A stretch of DNA of 64,000 bases from Chitiniphilus eburneus. GTDB lineage: Bacteria > Pseudomonadota > Gammaproteobacteria > Burkholderiales > Chitinibacteraceae. The stretch is from NCBI RefSeq assembly GCF_005048205.1, contig NZ_SUMF01000004.1, forward strand, positions 62,001-126,000, in the 5' to 3' direction. Below are positions 39,111 through 59,677 of the stretch, piece after piece (position 1 is the first letter of the stretch; each line of letters starts with the position of its first letter). Made by a program: the position numbers and the translations under genes. A model generated the notes under the pieces. That model saw only the letters and a list, made by a program, of their open reading frames with translations, was not told the DNA's origin and made no database searches.

Positions 39111-39494
39111 TCACAACTGGATGCCGCCGGCCCCCACCATACGAGCGAGTTGCAGGAACTCGATCCCGTAGGTGGTCAGATTCCAGAATCCGCCATCGGT
39201 CAAAGTCACCGCGCCGCTGTCGTAGCCGGCGCTGACTTTGTCGACTGCCTTGCTGGTGGCAGGGCCTTTGACCTGGCCGGGAATACCGCCCACGGCCGCC
39301 GCGCGTTGATTTGCAGCACCGAGCGCCAGATGGTGGGCGGTGAACAGCTCCAAGCCATGGCCCCAGAGGTCGCACCACCGATCAGGCGGCAACATCTTCT
39401 CCGCCAGGCTCAGCCAGAAATCGACCGTTGCCGTGGGATAGGTGCTGGTGTTGGCGAACTCCGGAAAATCGGTGCGGAACTGTTGCGCGTCCAT
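39111..39494 (-). CDS. DUF4054 head completion protein
   Basis: The 127-residue protein has the DUF4054 signature: FRTDFPEFANTSTYPTATVD, DFWLSLAEKMLPPDRWCDLW, GLELFTAHHLALGAANQRAA and DGGFWNLTTYGIEFLQLARM. Such proteins form the head-tail adaptor ring below the portal. Confidence 0.88.
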   Translation of the reverse strand: MDAQQFRTDFPEFANTSTYPTATVDFWLSLAEKMLPPDRWCDLWGHGLELFTAHHLALGAANQRAAAVGGIPGQVKGPATSKAVDKVSAGYDSGAVTLTDGGFWNLTTYGIEFLQLARMVGAGGIQL

Positions 39495-39502
39495 GCTGGG
39501 CT

Positions 39503-39760
39503 CTAGCTGTTGGGTTGTGGCGGTTTCTGGCCGTCGGCAGGATCAACTTTGGGTTCGGTCGGCGGAGCTTCCCCACCAGGATGCTGGCTCTTCTTCGAAG
39601 CCCGGGCCGCCTTGGCAGCGGCAGGATCTTCGATGTGCGCCTTCACATACCAGTGCTCAGCCAGTGCGTCATCGACATCGTGTTCACCGACCTCGAACGC
39701 GGCCTTCTCACCATTGGCCTGGGTCAAGGTGAACGCCTTGATCACGTTGATGGTTTTCAT
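39503..39760 (-). CDS. Small phage protein, STY1053-like
   Basis: The 85-residue product has TQANGEKAAFEVGEHDVDDA and LAEHWYVKAHIED in its folded N-terminal half. A long Pro/Lys/Glu-rich tail follows (GGEAPPTEPKVDPADGQKPP). Its place after the major capsid gene suggests a minor head protein. Confidence 0.72.
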   Translation of the reverse strand: MKTINVIKAFTLTQANGEKAAFEVGEHDVDDALAEHWYVKAHIEDPAAAKAARASKKSQHPGGEAPPTEPKVDPADGQKPPQPNS

Positions 39761-53373: not shown

Positions 53374-53550
53374 TCAGGCAACTCGCTTTCGCTTTGAGCG
53401 CTTACACAACACGTCTTGCAGCTGGTAGGCGCGGAGCAAAGGCACAGACCCGTCCATCGGCCACTGGGCCACAGCGGCTCGACTGATCCCGAGAACACGG
53501 GCGATCTCGGCTTTAGAGCCGAATGCCCGCAAAGCATCTTTTACTTTCAT
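53374..53550 (-). CDS. Cro-like regulator
   Basis: ATG 53548-53550 gives 58 residues: MKVKDALRAFGSKAEIARVL, then GISRAAVAQWPMDGSVPLLR and a basic tail KRSKRKRVA. The compact HTH (SKAEIARVLGISRAAVAQW) and the divergent position next to the repressor identify it as the Cro equivalent. It would repress the repressor promoter during lytic growth. Confidence 0.85.
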   Translation of the reverse strand: MKVKDALRAFGSKAEIARVLGISRAAVAQWPMDGSVPLLRAYQLQDVLCKRSKRKRVA

Positions 53551-53559
53551 ATGCCAATG

Positions 53560-53622
53560 ATAAGCATACTTTACGAGAAAATGCAAAGTGCAGATAACAT
53601 CTCGGTTGGTAAGCTCGCTTAC
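53560..53622. promoter_or_regulatory. Immunity operator/promoter region (OR-like)
   Basis: Two related inverted repeats, ataag-cata-cttta (53560-53573) and gtaag-ctcg-cttac (53609-53622), sit between the divergent cro-like and repressor genes. Rightward: TTTACG (53570-53575), 17-base gap, GATAAC (53593-53598), giving a repressor mRNA with a very short leader. Leftward: TTGCAT, 18-base gap, TATCAT, overlapping the first operator. Binding to the sites would switch the two promoters. Confidence 0.7.
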
Positions 53623-53623
53623 T

Positions 53624-54298
53624 ATGAACACACTAAAAGAACGCCTACAGCTGGCCCTGGCTGCTGCTGGCCCCAACAAATCCATGGCAGGTTTATCCCG
53701 TCATGCCGGAGTGTCGCGAACCGCTGTTAGCCTTTGGTTCAGCGGAGCGACACAAAAGTTGGATGGGGAAAATCTTCTGCGGGCGGCGGAATATTTGGGC
53801 GTATCACCGCAGTGGCTAGCTACAGGTAAGGGACGCGTCCAATTTGATGAGAACCAAGACCATTCTCAAGGGAAAAACGCAGGCGAAGCCAAGTACGTAG
53901 CCGTCCCGATCTATTCCACTCACGGGGCGTGCGGCTTCGGCTACATGAACGACAGTGTTGAGATTGAAGGTCAGTTCTCCATGCCGCGTACCTTGTTGGA
54001 CCGGCTTGGCGTTACAGCACAGAATGCAGCGCTCATCCATGCGAAAGGTGACAGCATGAGCCCTTATATTTGCGATGGTGACTTGGTGCTACTCAATCGA
54101 GCGGAGACTCGCATTCAGAACGGTTTGATATACGCGTTCCTGGATGAGGATGAGGTTATGATCAAGCGCGTACAAAAAGGGTTCGGCTCTATCACATTGA
54201 CCAGCGACAACCCGAACAAGGCAATCCATCCTGATCGATCAGTCCCTGGCAATGCAGAACTGCTTGTTCTTGGGAAGGTAGTATGGCGCGGAGGTTAA
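53624..54298 (+). CDS. Phage repressor, CI-type with S24 (LexA-like) peptidase domain
   Basis: ATG 53624 gives 224 residues. The HTH spans about residues 20-45 (SMAGLSRHAGVSRTAVSLWF). The C-terminal S24 domain has a probable cleavage site at C103-G104 (STHGACGFG), Ser144 (GDSMSPYICDGD) and Lys181 (EVMIKRVQKG). RecA-stimulated self-cleavage after DNA damage would induce the prophage. Cys-Gly rather than Ala-Gly is seen also in UmuD. It is followed by a terminator. Confidence 0.92.
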   Translation: MNTLKERLQLALAAAGPNKSMAGLSRHAGVSRTAVSLWFSGATQKLDGENLLRAAEYLGVSPQWLATGKGRVQFDENQDHSQGKNAGEAKYVAVPIYSTHGACGFGYMNDSVEIEGQFSMPRTLLDRLGVTAQNAALIHAKGDSMSPYICDGDLVLLNRAETRIQNGLIYAFLDEDEVMIKRVQKGFGSITLTSDNPNKAIHPDRSVPGNAELLVLGKVVWRGG

Positions 54299-54347
54299 CC
54301 GTCGCCATTCACGTGATAGTCACCTAGCCAAGTAACCCCTTCTGCCG

Positions 54348-54369
54348 GTCCCGCTCAGCGGGACTTTTT
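54348..54369 (+). terminator. Terminator after the repressor gene
   Basis: gtcccgc (54348-54354), loop tca, gcgggac (54358-54364), then TTTTT. This separates the repressor transcript from the gene-free region that follows. Confidence 0.9.
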
Positions 54370-54421
54370 CTTGCCCGACAGACAGCCTGGACTCTACCGC
54401 TCGTCGAAATTGTTAAGTTCA

Positions 54422-54434
54422 ATTGACTGTCAAT
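54422..54434. promoter_or_regulatory. 13-bp palindrome ATTGACTGTCAAT near the start of the gene-free region
   Basis: attgac-t-gtcaat is a perfect palindrome. A consensus -35 hexamer TTGACA follows at 54447-54452, though its -10 is weak. This could be the operator/promoter zone of the RNA candidate. Confidence 0.45.
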
Positions 54435-54439
54435 CGCAA

Positions 54440-55291
54440 AGCACGCTTGACAATGGCACCATCGCAAAGCAGACTTTACTCAACCAAGCGCAACACACAG
54501 CGCCCCGATCTTTCACAACCCAGCCAGCACCCCCCTCCCCGCCTCGGCGTGGAATACATCGGTAGAGGGAACGCGCCACGACTACCACCTGGCGCCAATG
54601 ACGGCACCGCCACTCGCAATGCACGGGCCGATGGTAGAGCAACGCACACCACACGACGGATGCGCGTACCGGAGCTGGGCCAACGACAGGCAGGCGACGG
54701 TGCGATGGCAAGGGCCGCGAGCGCAGAGGACGGAAGGTGGTGTGCGGAATCCGGTTCGAAAGAGCCGGAGTACCTGAGCGGATTCGCAAGAGTACGTTGA
54801 GGTATCCCTAACGCCTAATCGCAGGGCATGCAACGCGGCCGAAGGACCGCTCGCGAGGGAGTTAAACCGCCAGCCCGGGCGTTGCGGTAGGGCACCAACA
54901 CAAAAGCGGCGGCGTGGCGAATGCATCCACGAGGCAGCCTGTATAGCGAGGTAGCGCGGCCCAAGGCGCGAGAAACGGAGTACAGGGGGCAGTGGCGCAG
55001 TTGAAATCCCCTGGGCAACGCAAAGCCGGCAGTGCGACCGGCCCGCTTCTGTGTTGGTGAATGCGCAGGCTGATGCGCAAAGAGGATACGCGCTGGCAAC
55101 GTTTTAGCCGGATGAAATAGGGCCGGTGTGCACCAGCAAGCCGCGGGTCACAGCGCCGGCCACCAACACGCTTGGGAAGGGCCATGGCGACACGATGGCG
55201 GCGCATATACCCTACGCGCCCGACTGGCTGGCGTAACCAGCTACAACCCGAACACCACCACACGCGCTAGCAGCAATGCCAGCGCGTTTTT
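54440..55291 (+). ncRNA. Candidate large structured non-coding RNA (~0.85 kb)
   Basis: Between the repressor terminator and the next gene there are about 0.9 kb without a convincing gene, in an otherwise gene-dense prophage. The stretch is rich in pairing. ccggttc-GAAA-gagccgg near 54751-54768 is a 7-bp stem with a GNRA loop, and gcggcc-gaa-gg-a-ccgc lies at 54835-54850. cagggg/cccctg pairs 54983-54988 with 55008-55013, and gccgg/ccggc pairs 55025-55029 with 55038-55042. A long-range gtgttggtg/caccaacac (55051-55059 with 55161-55169) encloses three inner hairpins. It ends in a strong terminator. RNA nature, exact 5' end and function are inferred. Confidence 0.5.
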
Positions 55292-55296
55292 ATTTG
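55262..55296 (+). terminator. Terminator at the end of the gene-free region
   Basis: acgcgct (about 55262-55268) pairs with agcgcgt (about 55281-55287) and is followed by TTTTATTT. It stops rightward transcripts just before the ribosome site (tggagc) of the 55316 gene. Confidence 0.83.
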
Positions 55297-55315
55297 CCCA
55301 CGCATGGAGCACGCA

Positions 55316-56041
55316 ATGGCTACGCGCAAGAAGAAAGAAGCTGTGAAGGAAGTACAGGAAGAGGTGGTCACGTCCTACAAGGGCTTCGACAGCAACTGGA
55401 AATGCCGCGGCTACCAGTTCGCGGTTGGCGGCAAGTTCGAGCATGAAGGCGACGTAAAAGCCTGCGAATCTGGCTTCCACGCCTGCGAATATCCGTTGGA
55501 TGTGTTCGGCTATTACCCGCCCGCGCAAAGCCGGTTCGCCGTCGTGCAGCAGTCGGGCGAATTGAGCCGGCACAGCGATGACTCGAAGGTCGCCAGCAAG
55601 AAGCTGGAAGTCAAAGCAGAAATCTCGATCGCGGGTCTGGTGAAGGCGGCGATTGAATACACGACCTCCAGGTGTGAACCGATCAACCAGGATTCGCCAG
55701 CGTCGGCCACAGGCTACCAGGGCGCAGCGTCGGCCACAGGCTACCAGGGCGCAGCGTCGGCCACAGGCGGCCGGGGCGCAGCGTCGGCCACAGGCGACTA
55801 CGGCGCAGCGTCGGCCACAGGCTACCAGGGCGCAGCGTCGGCCACAGGCGCTCATAGCGTTGCTATCGCGACCGGTTCGGAAGGGCGCGCCTTGGCTGGA
55901 GAGAACGGCGCAATCGTGCTGGTTTACCGCAACGACGACGACGAAATCGTCCACATCCGCGCGAGCAAAGTTGGCGAGAACGGCATCAAGCCTGGCGTGT
56001 TTTACACGCTCAACGCTGAAGGTGAATTCATCGAAGCGTGA
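55316..56041 (+). CDS. DUF7666-like protein with 9-residue ASATG repeats
   Basis: ATG 55316 (after tggagca) gives 241 residues. The N-domain has SYKGFDSNWKCRGYQFAVGG and ACESGFHACEYPLDVFGYYP, which I recall as DUF7666. Then six perfect or near-perfect copies of a 27-bp unit encode ASATGYQGA-type repeats, followed by a short globular end (AIVLVYRNDDDEIVHIRASK). The repeats resemble left-handed beta-roll motifs of YadA-type heads. Role unknown; it may be a lysogenic accessory protein. Confidence 0.78.
   Translation: MATRKKKEAVKEVQEEVVTSYKGFDSNWKCRGYQFAVGGKFEHEGDVKACESGFHACEYPLDVFGYYPPAQSRFAVVQQSGELSRHSDDSKVASKKLEVKAEISIAGLVKAAIEYTTSRCEPINQDSPASATGYQGAASATGYQGAASATGGRGAASATGDYGAASATGYQGAASATGAHSVAIATGSEGRALAGENGAIVLVYRNDDDEIVHIRASKVGENGIKPGVFYTLNAEGEFIEA
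55697..55858 (+). repeat. Six tandem 27-bp coding repeats
   Basis: The unit gcgtcggccacaggctacca plus gggcgca recurs without frame change. Variation is confined to the codons for the YQ, GR, DY, YQ and AH positions, suggesting recent expansion or exchange of units. Confidence 0.88.
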
Positions 56042-56156
56042 CCCGACCGCTGGTCTCCAGCGGCAGCTATGTGCCCCGCAACTCATACCCTTTGACGCGA
56101 AACATGAGGGGCGCATAGCTACCGGTGGGCGACCACCGCTTCATCTCCTCCTCCTA

Positions 56157-56175
56157 GCCCCGGCATGTCCGGGGC
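56157..56175 (+). terminator. Hairpin terminator directly before the 56196 gene
   Basis: gccccgg (56157-56163), loop catgt, ccggggc (56169-56175), then atcttttttggag, where ggag is the ribosome site of the next gene. Confidence 0.87.
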
Positions 56176-56195
56176 ATCTTTTTTGGAGACTGATC

Positions 56196-56489
56196 ATGAA
56201 CATGGAAACCGCTCGCGCACGCCTCATCGCGGAGATGATGGAGTCGAATCCGCGATTCAATCCGCGCCGTGGCATCAACATCGCCGAGGCACTTGGCGAA
56301 ATGGCGCTATCCGCGCTGGAACAGGCCTACGCCGTTGGCAATCTGGAAATCGGCAGGATCGTTGATGACTACTGGTGGAATGTAGCGAGCGACTACCTCG
56401 ACAAGCATCCATCCGACCTGGCTGATTTCGTCAAAGAGCATCGAGATGATCGTCTCGATGAAATAGCTATGGAGCGGGTAGCGGCATGA
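56196..56489 (+). CDS. Small helical hypothetical protein
   Basis: ATG 56196 gives 97 residues: MNMETARARLIAEMMESNPR, LGEMALSALEQAYAVGNLEI and a Trp-rich DDYWWNVASDYLDKHPSDLA. Not recognised. It overlaps the next gene by four bases. Confidence 0.65.
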   Translation: MNMETARARLIAEMMESNPRFNPRRGINIAEALGEMALSALEQAYAVGNLEIGRIVDDYWWNVASDYLDKHPSDLADFVKEHRDDRLDEIAMERVAA

Positions 56490-57127
56490 AAGAGCGCCCC
56501 ATCCTATTCAGCGCGCCGATGGTGCGCGCCATCCTCGACGGCCGGAAAACGCAGACGCGGCGGGTTATTGAGCCGCCACCCATGATGGTCGCCGACCACG
56601 CGACAAGGCCGTGGCAAGGCAGCCCAGAGCAGTTGATGTCACTGTTTGAGCAACTTGGACGAAAGTGCCCCTACGGCCGGCCCGGAGACCGGCTGTGGGT
56701 GCGCGAGGCATACCGCACATCTTTCCAGTATGACCACATCAAACCCCGAGACCTACCCGTCGCACGCACGAAATCGACGCTGGCTGTCCCGTTTTGGTAC
56801 GACGCCGACCTGTACGGCGATCTGACTCCACTGCACCCCGGCCTAGGGCCTGGCAAATACCGGCCGGGCATGTTCATGCCGCGCGCGGCCAGCCGAATCT
56901 TGCTGGAAATCACTGCCATGCGCGTCGAGCGCCTACAGGACATCAGCCCTGCCGATTGTATCGCCGAGGGATACCAATCCCCGCCCGGGACTCGGTATGC
57001 ACAGGAGGAATTGGCGACTCTCGACTGGTACAGGGAACTGTGGGAATCAATCAACGGCGCTGGTAGCTGGCAGGCTAACCCGTGGGTCTGGGTGGTCGAG
57101 TTCACGCGAGTGGAGGTGGCAGCATGA
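56486..57127 (+). CDS. ASCH/PUA-like phage protein
   Basis: The 213-residue protein begins MKERPILFSAPMVRAILDGR, KTQTRRVIEPPP, then GRPGDRLWVREAYRTSFQYD, PRAASRILLEITAMRVERLQ and AGSWQANPWVWVVEFTRVEV. 'ILFSxPMVRAILxGRKTQTRR' plus 'W-V-R-E' is the well-known ASCH-like morphon of phages; the fold is thought to bind RNA or modified nucleotides. Function unproven. Confidence 0.85.
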   Translation: MKERPILFSAPMVRAILDGRKTQTRRVIEPPPMMVADHATRPWQGSPEQLMSLFEQLGRKCPYGRPGDRLWVREAYRTSFQYDHIKPRDLPVARTKSTLAVPFWYDADLYGDLTPLHPGLGPGKYRPGMFMPRAASRILLEITAMRVERLQDISPADCIAEGYQSPPGTRYAQEELATLDWYRELWESINGAGSWQANPWVWVVEFTRVEVAA

Positions 57128-57137
57128 GACGGGCCCG

Positions 57138-57371
57138 ATGAAATACCTCCTCAATGGCGTACCGCATGATAGCAACCCATATGGATGCTACAACGCGCCG
57201 CGACCGCTTTCAGGTGCGCCAGTGCTGCACGGCAACGGCCGAACGATAGCCGCGCACACTCAATGGAATGATGGCGCGGGCAATCTCGTCCAGGTTGACC
57301 AGCCAATCCCATGTATCTACCGACAGTCGCACAATGACGAGTTGTGTTTTGGCTGCTGCCATATGGAGTAA
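57138..57371 (+). CDS. Hypothetical phage protein
   Basis: ATG 57138 gives 77 residues: MKYLLNGVPHDSNPYGCYNA then a C-terminal QSHNDELCFGCCHME with a C-x2-CC cluster that may bind metal. Not recognised. Confidence 0.55.
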   Translation: MKYLLNGVPHDSNPYGCYNAPRPLSGAPVLHGNGRTIAAHTQWNDGAGNLVQVDQPIPCIYRQSHNDELCFGCCHME

Positions 57372-57377
57372 TTCAGT

Positions 57378-57554
57378 ATGAGCAAGATAGAAATTGCTCC
57401 TTATGAGCGGCAGGACAAAATAAGCAAGATTGTCTTCATGTGCCGCAGCGGCGGCTATGTCATGTGTCGCCGTCCAAGAGCGATGCCATTTGTCCTTACG
57501 GAGAAAGAGTGGCGGAACCTCGATCCATATCAGCCGAAAGAGCAATTGACATGA
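57378..57554 (+). CDS. Small hypothetical protein
   Basis: ATG 57378 gives 58 residues (MSKIEIAPYERQDKISKIVF; then VMCRRPRAMPFVLTEKEWRN). It has ggag upstream at 57365-57368 and a stop overlapping the next start (ACATGA). 'FMCRSGGYVMCRRPRAMPF' is a compact module seen in phage proteins that I cannot name. Confidence 0.68.
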   Translation: MSKIEIAPYERQDKISKIVFMCRSGGYVMCRRPRAMPFVLTEKEWRNLDPYQPKEQLT

Positions 57555-57808
57555 CCGACCACTATCCCGCACTTCGCGGCCGCGCCAAGAGCCGTCTCAC
57601 CTGGGGCGGTTTTTTATCGGCCACTGTTTTCGTCCTGGCGATGCTGTTTCTGATGTGGCTGCCCGTATATTGGGCTGAATACCAGAAGGAACCCGAGCCA
57701 TCTCAGGCAGAGATCCTGCTGTGCGATGCGCCCGATGATGGGGTACAGGTGTGCACTGAATTCAGGAAAGAGCTGGCCGGCCGAATCAAACCACGACAGG
57801 TGATGTGA
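57551..57808 (+). CDS. Small single-pass membrane protein
   Basis: ATG 57551 gives 85 residues with one membrane helix (FLSATVFVLAMLFLMWLPVY) and a C-terminal half carrying two Cys (ILLCDAPDDGVQVCTEFRKE). It is probably anchored with the C-terminus in the periplasm. Not recognised. Confidence 0.65.
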   Translation: MTDHYPALRGRAKSRLTWGGFLSATVFVLAMLFLMWLPVYWAEYQKEPEPSQAEILLCDAPDDGVQVCTEFRKELAGRIKPRQVM

Positions 57809-57848
57809 AACCACTATGCCCGGCAGAGTCTCGGGCTCAGGAGAAAAG

Positions 57849-58811
57849 ATGTCTACCCAGCTCAAAACCTTTGATAGCGTCAAAGGCATTGTGCTGTCGC
57901 TCGGCGAAGAGTTCGCCCGTGTGTGCAGTGATAAGTCGATCAATTTCAACCGCGAAGCGGGTTTCGCGGTGCAATTGCTCCAAGAAAGCAGCTATCTGCT
58001 CGAAACCGCCTACAGCAATCCAGATTCATTGCGCAATGCGGTGGTGAATGTTGCCGCGCTCGGCATAAGTTTGAATCCAGCCAAGAAGCAAGCATATCTT
58101 GTGCCGCGCAAGAACAAGAACGGCGTTAAATCCATCTGCCTGGACATCAGCTACATAGGTTTGCTGCATTTGGCGCAGCAGACCGGCGCTATCTATTGGG
58201 GCAAAGCGGAAATCGTGCGCGAGCGTGACCAATTCCGAATGACGGGACTCGATTCGCCACCAGAGCATGCGTTTGATCCATTCGCCGTGCCTGATGATCG
58301 TGGCCAGGTGGTGGGCGCATATGTCGTCGTCAAGACGTGCGATGGAGACTACCTCACCCACACAATGCCGGCGAAAAAGATCAATGACATTCGTGATCGT
58401 TCCGAGGCATGGAAAAGCGGGCAGAAAGGCCCATGGGGCACTGACTATGAGGAAATGGCCAAGAAGACGGTGGTGAAGCAGGCCAGCAAGTACTGGCCTC
58501 ATCGCGAACGCCTTCAGACGGCCATTCACCATCTCGACACAGATGGCGGAGAAGGAGTCGAGAAGGATGTTACCTACAGCAGTGGCGTAATTCCTGAGCC
58601 GAAAAGCGATGAGGCCACCAAGGCCCTTGTCGCGGGCTTGGAGGAGGCGGCGAAGAGCGGAGTACAGGCTTTCCGGACCGCATGGGCGGCACTTGCCGAG
58701 CAACAGAAGGCGGACGTCGGGCTTGAAGAACGCAATCGAATCAATAGGATGGCCAAAGCTCCGCAGGGCGAAGTGATCGAAGGTGATGCGCGAGAGGTCG
58801 AGAATGAATGA
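57849..58811 (+). CDS. recT: RecT-family single-strand annealing protein
   Basis: ATG 57849 after aggag gives 320 residues. NFNREAGFAVQLLQESSYLL, NVAALGISLNPAKKQAYLVP, CLDISYIGLLHLAQQTGAIY and EMAKKTVVKQASKYWP are the RecT core motifs. It anneals complementary single strands during phage recombination. The C-terminal ~70 residues are acidic and helical. It overlaps the exonuclease gene, its partner. Confidence 0.92.
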   Translation: MSTQLKTFDSVKGIVLSLGEEFARVCSDKSINFNREAGFAVQLLQESSYLLETAYSNPDSLRNAVVNVAALGISLNPAKKQAYLVPRKNKNGVKSICLDISYIGLLHLAQQTGAIYWGKAEIVRERDQFRMTGLDSPPEHAFDPFAVPDDRGQVVGAYVVVKTCDGDYLTHTMPAKKINDIRDRSEAWKSGQKGPWGTDYEEMAKKTVVKQASKYWPHRERLQTAIHHLDTDGGEGVEKDVTYSSGVIPEPKSDEATKALVAGLEEAAKSGVQAFRTAWAALAEQQKADVGLEERNRINRMAKAPQGEVIEGDAREVENE

Positions 58812-59472
58812 ACAGGGCTCTCAAGCGTGGCGAGATGGCCGCGCTGGGCGGATCACCGCCAGTTGTTTCGCTGAGGCCATTGCGATGAAGGAGGTAGTTA
58901 CCCAGCGAGAGAACAAAAAACAGGGCTTGGAGCGCAAAACGAAATTGGTGCCGACCGATACCCGCAACACCTATATGCGTAGCCTGATTGCCGAGATTCT
59001 GAGCGGTCAGCCAAAGCCTGAGGTGTCCTCTCGCTCATTGGAATGGGGGAAAGAGCATGAGCCCTTGGCTCGAGAACTCTATGAACTCAAATCGGGCAAC
59101 TTCGTCGAGCAAACCGGTCTCGTCGTCCATCCCGATTTCGACTTCATCGCAGCCAGCCCCGATGGGCTGATCGACGACGATGGCGGACTCGAAATGAAAT
59201 GCCCGAAGGATCCGCAGATCCACATCAAAACATGGATGGAGGGCATGCCGGATGAACATATCGCTCAGATTCAGGGCGGCATGTTCGTCACTGGCAGGAA
59301 ATGGTGGGATTTCGTCAGCTTCGATCCGAGGCAAACTCCAGAAATGAGGCTGTTCGTGCAGCGGATCAGTAGGAACGACCAATATATTGATGGCGTTCTT
59401 CAGCCTGGCCTGTTGGCATTCTGGCGCGATGTCCAATCTGCCCTTGATCAACTCCGACGCAAAGTGGGGTGA
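58804..59472 (+). CDS. YqaJ/lambda-exonuclease-type recombinase nuclease
   Basis: ATG 58804 gives 222 residues. Motifs: GSQAWRDGRAGRITASCFAE, SRSLEWGKEHEPLARELYEL, FIAASPDGLID, GLEMKCPKD (the D...E-x-K active site) and IAQIQGGMFVTGRKWWDFVS. The enzyme degrades 5' strands from double-strand ends and hands 3' tails to RecT. Confidence 0.93.
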   Translation: MNEQGSQAWRDGRAGRITASCFAEAIAMKEVVTQRENKKQGLERKTKLVPTDTRNTYMRSLIAEILSGQPKPEVSSRSLEWGKEHEPLARELYELKSGNFVEQTGLVVHPDFDFIAASPDGLIDDDGGLEMKCPKDPQIHIKTWMEGMPDEHIAQIQGGMFVTGRKWWDFVSFDPRQTPEMRLFVQRISRNDQYIDGVLQPGLLAFWRDVQSALDQLRRKVG

Positions 59473-59476
59473 CATC

Positions 59477-59677
59477 ATGCCAGTTATGCCAGTTGCCTAT
59501 CGCATTTTTGCATATCTGCTGCGAAACGAATTATCAACAGCCAAGGCAATTGCATCAGATTGCAATTGCACCCAGCAGACGGCAAATAAAACCCTGTTGC
59601 GTCTAATGGATCTAGGCGTAGCAATGAGGGACAAGCAACGAGGCTCCTATCACTGGTCCCTGATAAGGGGCGATTAA
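59477..59677 (+). CDS. Small winged-helix regulator
   Basis: ATG 59477 gives 66 residues: a wHTH with YRIFAYLLRNELSTAKAIAS, CTQQTANKTLLRLMDLGVAM and a beta wing KQRGSYHWSLIRGD. Probably a DNA-binding regulator. Confidence 0.7.
   Translation: MPVMPVAYRIFAYLLRNELSTAKAIASDCNCTQQTANKTLLRLMDLGVAMRDKQRGSYHWSLIRGD

Follow-up and report, generated by a model that had tools for sequence, protein, structure and literature searches.

Does the stretch between the repressor gene and the early genes of this prophage encode a structured RNA, and of which kind would this RNA be? In this report, the window is the whole 64,000-nt stretch of DNA that was analysed, and all positions refer to it. The region is bordered by the cI gene (Peptidase_S24), which ends at 54298, and by a DUF7666 gene on the plus strand, which starts at 55304 and is followed by genes for RecT and a YqaJ exonuclease. 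Cro and DnaB are encoded on the minus strand. The flanking cI, Cro, DUF7666, RecT and YqaJ genes have family matches in Pfam/PHROGs, whereas the four long open reading frames inside the stretch (one sense, three antisense) have none. A protein-coding reading of the stretch is rejected on these grounds, in agreement with the initial annotation, which had described it as gene-free.

The stretch had also been placed between the terminator of the repressor gene and a strong terminator of its own. Both are found. The former is detected at 54347–54365. The latter (acgcgct..agcgcgt followed by T5, 55262–55292, fold energy −15.9 kcal/mol) is absent from the list of the pattern scan. Near-palindromes at 54422–54434, 54451–54464 and 54464–54479 are the basis for a putative promoter/operator (Table 1); a sigma-70 scan of 53500–56300 gave no promoter match. 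The leader segment that follows includes what we take to be a boxA-like stretch. In a second genome of the same genus (L002) this segment is present and the RNA is missing. By eye, the segment leads there into a DUF7666-type repeat gene that lacks its start.

The DUF7666 gene of the window (55304–56041) contains short repeats of the ASATGYQGA type, and their copy number is much higher in L002. Directly before cI lies a perfect palindrome (gtaagctcgcttac, 53609–53622), likely a repressor operator. A tRNA-Arg (tct) gene of 95 nt is located at 39491–39585, approximately 15 kb from the RNA. Megablast of 55300–59500 against phages gave no match.

Table 1. Features assigned to the stretch and the basis of each assignment
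Feature	Positions	Strand	Basis or remark
Putative early (pL-type) promoter/operator upstream of the RNA	54422–54480	+	inferred from palindromes
Conserved leader segment with boxA-like stretch	54475–54521	+	89% identity over 47 nt to L002 (same genus)
Presumed transcript, 5′ part, with unproven structure	54522–54892	+	holds the GNRA stem 54751–54768
Leader hairpin, 5′ strand; its caccaac half may pair with the acceptor 5′ strand instead	54893–54909	+	duplex with 55043–55059
Variable domain 1, within the leader hairpin	54910–55042	+	position
Leader helix, 3′ strand, immediately 5′ of the acceptor	55043–55052	+	pairs with 54900–54909, one A/C mismatch
Acceptor stem, 5′ strand	55053–55059	+	covariation; register confirmed by the tRNA in L440
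D-arm, loop aggctgat (55067–55074)	55062–55079	+	stem changes on both sides at 2 of 4 pairs
Variable insert where a tRNA has its anticodon arm	55080–55139	+	helix 55092–55096/55133–55137, from L004 and L005 by eye
T-arm	55140–55160	+	alignment and loop pairing; one C/C mismatch, two extra loop bases
Acceptor stem, 3′ strand	55161–55167	+	covariation; no encoded CCA (acgct follows)
Intrinsic terminator closing the region	55262–55292	+	fold −15.9 kcal/mol and T-run

The tRNA topology of the 3′ domain

The segment 54485–55295 has a fold energy of −343.7 kcal/mol, with a z-score of −1.88 (20 shuffles). Given this modest value, pairing density alone would not convince. The case for an RNA beyond chance rests on conservation and covariation and not on fold energy. 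By these measures, the RNA element at 54893–55169 is conserved and structured, and the phage RNA family to which it belongs is undescribed. A single large RNA of 0.85 kb had been proposed; structure is established for these approximately 280 nt at its 3′ end, but one continuous RNA of that size is not. In the 5′ part, a GNRA-capped stem of 7 bp had been read from the sequence and is present (ccggttc-GAAA-gagccgg, 54751–54768, one T·G pair). Only a weak homologue exists for 54657–54732. For the remainder of 54522–54892 no relative was found, and this part is largely unexplained.

The 3′ domain has the topology of a tRNA. An acceptor stem is followed by two junction bases, a D-arm and a T-arm that stacks on the acceptor. 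Watson–Crick pairs between the D-loop and the T-loop replace the canonical elbow, and a variable insert takes the place of the anticodon arm. Seven acceptor pairs, two bases, a D-arm whose loop contains GG and a five-pair T-arm match a tRNA in length, and the acceptor 3′ strand directly follows the T-arm, as it does in tRNA.

The helices proposed initially for this part map onto the domain to different degrees. The outer helix 55051–55059/55161–55169 is exact, shows compensatory changes and is the acceptor stem, with two further acceptor-side pairs at 55051–55052. The pairing tgcgca/tgcgca exists, but its end had been placed one base off (55062–55067 with 55074–55079). The helices ctggc/gccgg and 55121–55129/55153–55161 can form, but L004 and L005, inspected by eye, suggest another insert helix (gctgg 55092–55096 with ccagc 55133–55137). 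The D- and T-loops of the window meet the Watson–Crick pairing with gctg (55069–55072) and cagc (55151–55154), which form four pairs, and one more pair across an insertion. The T-stem has four pairs and a C/C mismatch and fails the strict test for a five-pair TCAG T-arm described below. The pair at positions 3 and 70 is U3–A70. ARAGORN reports no tRNA at the tRNA-like domain of the window.

Relatives define the fold more clearly. The family set comprises 303 non-redundant instances with at most three mismatches in the core. When a strict T-arm was sought blind to the acceptor, with five pairs and a loop of nine bases that includes TCAG, 215 of the 303 had one (2.9 in shuffles). The seven nucleotides 3′ of this T-arm pair with the acceptor of the same instance at all seven positions in 174 cases and at six in 33. 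Acceptor positions 1–4 are fully paired in 193/215, compared with 76.7 when the 3′ strands are permuted. A permissive test for a 3′ hairpin was dropped: 286/303 instances pass, but so does shuffled downstream sequence (247–260/303). Combined with the loop motif CAG, the permissive test (219 observed) yields a set of 214 units, which underlies the analyses of upstream hairpins, inserts, neighbouring tRNAs and terminators, the leader test and one of the G3·U70 counts. Since 28–45/303 shuffled sequences also pass, up to about one sixth of these units may have a misplaced T-arm.

The covariation alignment contains 50 rows, namely the window and 49 of 103 candidates. In the named structure of 24 pairs, 95.3% of the cells are paired (shuffles 87.6%, slid partners 26–55%). 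This figure is inflated because the rows were picked with the permissive test; the acceptor permutation is free of that bias. Both sides have changed in 85 cells (24.7 in shuffles, 8–18 with slid partners), and the covariation score is 0.238 (shuffles 0.102, slid partners at most 0.097). The covariation among homologues that the initial annotation had named as a check thus exceeds both controls. The four pairs of the D-stem are formed in 99.5% of the cells. The two hairpin loops pair as GCTGAT/ATCAGC. Among the matches listed for the T-arm pattern, in which C or T was allowed after TCAG, one loop–loop pair is G–C in 30, G–U in 9, A–U in 19 and A/C in 1.

The tRNA likeness is also supported by the slot that the domain occupies. 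In some relatives a tag module (see below) lies upstream, and loci were gathered through this module and not through the tRNA-like domain. Behind it, 40 distinct slots were found: 20 hold the domain with loop–loop (kissing) pairs, four hold a canonical T-loop (L369, L373, L389, L399) and 16 hold something else. One of these 16, in L440, is a complete tRNA-Ile according to ARAGORN, and it starts exactly at the predicted acceptor. Counted from the first base of the acceptor 3′ strand, CCA occurs at 8–10 nt in 60/215 instances and at every other offset in 0–11. Phage tRNA genes share with this RNA the topology of acceptor, D- and T-arm, the CCA in part of the members, the location among tRNA genes and, in L440, the slot itself. 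Unlike them, the RNA has no anticodon arm, a kissing elbow and a long conserved leader hairpin. The insert was considered as an anticodon arm and rejected (2/212 inserts, 3.8 in shuffles).

A leader hairpin just 5′ of the domain can reach into the acceptor and then excludes the tRNA-like fold. The second caccaacac, which had been suggested as an alternative partner for the acceptor strand, is present at 54893–54901, and relatives have it again as the hairpin's outer strand. In the window, the helix 54900–54909/55043–55052 encloses a variable domain, and its 5′ strand continues into the sequence that pairs with the acceptor 5′ strand. The complete leader duplex (54893–54909 with 55043–55059) amounts to −35.8 kcal/mol and the acceptor pairing to −16.1 kcal/mol; the two helices differ in length. 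Among 130 distinct central strands, there are 58 whose upstream region pairs better with them than with any of 18 foreign central strands (6.8 expected); for minor acceptor types the figure is 9/38. The median leader duplex is −29.3 kcal/mol with the own and −23.4 kcal/mol with foreign upstream sequences.

Relatives, carriers and the tag module

In a blastn search with 54300–55330 against 50,697 phage records, 27 records match at E ≤ 1e-5, and the best 20 of these 27 matches all lie inside 55047–55165. A short query at E 10 matches 195 phage records, some of them by chance. Scans with exact motifs give 59 IMG/VR contigs and 66 stretches of bacterial genomes; the enteric-form motif and the T-arm pattern each find at least 120 loci. 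A model built without the window recovers it with 62.4 bits (E 5.3e-13), with acceptor, D-arm and T-arm in tRNA order. Carriers include Klebsiella phages, D3 and YA3 of P. aeruginosa, HK620, mEp460, P1 and RCS47, the Schitoviridae phage ZC03, the Ackermannviridae phage Magnus, Burkholderia CSP3 and Aeromonas ST4. At E 1, the HK620 version matches 1047/5426 E. coli genomes, on chromosomes as well as plasmids, and 89 genomes cover at least 80% of this query.

Closer to the window, the RNA is sparse. Its own genome holds one clear copy (E 6.5e-13) and three matches at E 0.2–0.7, and 2/43 genomes of the bacterial family (Chitinibacteraceae) match. The class-wide figure of 3/369 genomes is no measure of frequency, because only ten candidates per genome were scored. 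The core also occurs in L095, L134 and L136, contigs filed as Phycisphaerales, Magnetaquicoccus and Verrucomicrobiota, respectively. Either the host range is wider or these are wrongly binned phage contigs.

An Rfam search, also named at the outset as a check, gave no match of the window at the gathering score; three weak matches at E 10 assign no family. The covariance models of GOLLD and ROOL match neither the window nor 20 relatives. In openly licensed literature, in which the core motifs were searched as text too, no description of this RNA was found. The suggestion that a structured RNA outside the classes of Rfam is encoded here is supported by the missing match at gathering score, covariation above both controls and homologues in unrelated phages.

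Upstream of the domain, enteric phages carry a tmRNA-type reading frame (GCA-AAC-GA., ten codons, with the stop in a hairpin loop; by eye). The start motif, which by itself determines codons 1–3, is present in 80 non-redundant loci, and all 80 encode AN[DE]xxx[LK][MA][AV]A-stop, in 11 peptides and 24 DNA versions. The variant of P1 and RCS47 is ANDDLMMVAA and the tag of HK620 is ANEEMYLAVA. In a loose scan of the 303 upstream regions, 34 hits are in sense and 18 in antisense direction, and AN[DE] tags occur in sense only. Of 72 newly listed tag-start loci, drawn from 97 IMG/VR stretches, 35 contain a kissing domain (E ≤ 0.01), and many of these 35 are near-identical; rRNA and tmRNA control loci show no kissing domain at E 0.1. 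The tag scan found no tmRNA-type tag within 700 nt upstream of the core in the window, and there is none in the examined stretches of D3, CSP3, ST4, YA3, mEp460 and Marin. Codon-like conservation in homologues had been named as an observation that would refute the RNA. It does exist in one branch, as a ten-codon tag inside the structured RNA, but not in the window. With its damaged T-arm and without a tag, the window copy may be a reduced or decaying member.

The P1 frame is located at position 145 of L460 (NC_005856, ~68944), upstream of the tRNA-Asn and tRNA-Thr genes and beside a "dicF-like region"; the tRNA-like domain of P1 is at ~69.8 kb of the same record. Enterics and a P1 isolate have another 5′ module, which carries no tag ("type B", 28 sequences); its reading as a mimic of 23S rRNA was rejected (nhmmer E 1.3, a shuffle scored 0.43).

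Among the closest known systems is tmRNA (ssrA; RF00023, permuted RF04321, RF01850). The tag branch shares the tag frame, the GCA resume codon, the stop codon within a hairpin loop and, behind it, a hairpin that resembles a pseudoknot, and a tRNA-like domain without anticodon arm is common to both. All matches to Rfam models stay below the cut-offs. The permuted tmRNA model gives 31.1 bits with L070 (cut-off 47, E 1.8e-4) and beta_tmRNA E 8e-4; the best tmRNA-model match of HK620 is at E 0.04–0.08, and a sequence-profile comparison of the tag module with E. coli tmRNA (nhmmer, E 0.47) is not significant. In contrast to tmRNA, the phage RNA starts with the tag module and continues with a complete tRNA-like domain, possesses a D-stem and a loop–loop Watson–Crick elbow, and lacks G3·U70. 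This alanine identity pair of tmRNA occurs in 1/215 family members and in 0/214 of the overlapping set. Because of the reversed topology and the missing identity pair, the RNA is filed as a new family and not as tmRNA. By Rfam it does not belong to GOLLD or ROOL, and it is no standard tmRNA either; we infer that the new family works on or like translation RNAs. The tmRNA has a reduced D-loop without a stem (PMC3968760), and tmRNAs of the usual form are encoded by 402/18,146 phages (PMC9004378).

Possible functions of the RNA

With moderate confidence, we propose that the window encodes an induced early RNA that is processed by tRNA enzymes and acts in trans as an anticodon-less mimic of tRNA. 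The function is inferred, and there are no expression data. Upon prophage induction, the RNA would be made from the repressor-controlled early promoter and end at the terminator 55262–55292. Host tRNA enzymes (RNase P, CCA addition) would handle the tRNA-like end, and the stable RNA may then act on the translation apparatus. In relatives with the tag module, ribosomes would additionally be offered a reading frame of the tmRNA type. Because the 5′ leader strand competes for the acceptor, the domain could stay inactive until the 3′ strand has been made or the leader removed. Against this explanation stand the T-arm mismatch and the 2-nt insertion of the window copy, its lack of an encoded CCA and of a tag, the missing G3·U70 pair, the non-significant sequence match of the tag module to E. 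coli tmRNA and the largely unexplained 5′ part (54522–54892). A tag module that precedes a complete tRNA-like domain is also not obviously compatible with a tmRNA-like entry into the ribosome.

A more far-reaching reading is possible but remains doubtful. Tailed phages of Proteobacteria, P1 among them, may have their own ribosome-rescue RNA of reversed layout, with a tag module followed by a complete anticodon-less tRNA-like domain whose elbow is locked by Watson–Crick pairs. Such an RNA would enter ribosomes during infection, add a phage-specified tag (ANDDLMMVAA in P1) and divert stalled products or those of the host. Where the tag is missing, as in the window copy, the RNA would be a release-only or inhibitory version. 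The switch would be the leader strand that competes for the acceptor.

Somewhat less credible, and on balance unlikely, is a leader that acts in cis, either as an antitermination element modifying RNA polymerase or as a tRNA-like signal for processing, by which the operon RNA would receive its mature ends. The genomic context bears on this point. In HK620 the RNA lies between pR′/qut and the terminator tQ, and in YA3 between Q and holin, where it overlaps the start annotated for holin; both locations would be compatible with put-like readthrough in cis. The window copy, which like that of mEp460 lies downstream of cI, is found between leader and early genes, and tRNAs often follow downstream. 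The location is not uniform, though, as the RNA of RCS47 comes after two tRNAs and that of CSP3 lies among early genes, and a cis element would leave the tag frame without a role. The put RNA of HK022 is reportedly an antitermination element that modifies RNA polymerase. It resembles the present RNA as a structured RNA in phage leaders before terminators, but apparently differs in size and fold.

Across the family, a tRNA is found on the same strand within 1 kb in 30/149 units and on the opposite strand in 2 (0/122 for random places). Terminators lie just downstream in 44/208 units, compared with 15/208 in antisense. An abiF RNA (RF03085, 55.6 bits) is located at 1719–1755 of L053, and two tRNA-like units lie no more than a few hundred bases away.

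The inserts differ widely on a scaffold that is kept, and some resemble pieces of translation RNAs. In some phages the insert resembles helix 11 of 16S rRNA (clan match of 33.4 bits, E 9.6e-8, below the cut-off; blastn E 3.5e-6, best shuffle 0.004), and T-arm-like hairpins occur within 163 nt upstream of the core in 16/214 relatives (0.14 in shuffles). Anticodon nucleases act in defence. The RNA might be a decoy whose anticodon-less tRNA shape and rRNA or tRNA pieces sequester a host factor of defence or quality control, for example an anticodon nuclease or RNase. We regard this as improbable, since no target has been identified and a decoy does not need the tag frame. Look-alikes of helix 11 in insert or slot are found in L172 (4600–4646), L176, L204, L375, L403 and L411, the last with what looks like a compensated change. 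The core domain as an rRNA piece was rejected, as shuffles score higher.

Slightly less probable still is a multimer consisting of RNA only, in which kissing of D- and T-loops or exchange of leader and acceptor between molecules would build an assembly like those of GOLLD or ROOL. The loops are complementary, one strand has two possible partners, and tandem units exist (L006, RCS47). But the loop pairing is explained by tRNA geometry within one molecule, and in some relatives the slot of the domain is occupied by a canonical tRNA-like fold or by a tRNA. GOLLD and ROOL are phage or prophage RNAs near tRNA islands, with a conserved 3′ and a variable 5′ part, which sometimes contains tRNAs, and with unknown function (PMC12286853). 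The present RNA shares this life style and division, but it has no Rfam match (window and 20 loci) and its tRNA-like domain of ~120 nt sets it apart. That the element is merely what is left of a tRNA array, or a hot spot of DNA recombination, and has no function as an RNA, as the imperfect window copy, the tandem units with direct repeats and the seemingly exchanged inserts might suggest, can practically be dismissed in view of the near-invariant core in unrelated phages, the compensatory changes with G·U pairs, the strand bias of tRNAs, T-arms and terminators, and the tag frame open in 80/80 loci.

The RNA family brought to light here is present in phages of the laboratory (P1, HK620, D3) and, at E 1, in about one fifth of complete E. 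coli genomes. Its tRNA-like fold is held by Watson–Crick pairing of the D- and T-loops, and its tmRNA-type tag frame lies outside any tmRNA form recognised by Rfam. Whether phages run a tagging or a tRNA-mimic system of their own can now be tested in P1 and E. coli K-12.

In the records inspected, the RNA is either unannotated or hidden under "hypothetical proteins". Small annotated hypothetical proteins overlap it in L460 (NC_005856, 68800–73500), L005, L006, L067 and L071. The overlapping annotations are on the opposite strand in P1 (plp/upl) and mEp460 and on the same strand in D3 (orf86), KlebP_265 and Magnus. These small proteins are candidates for spurious genes.
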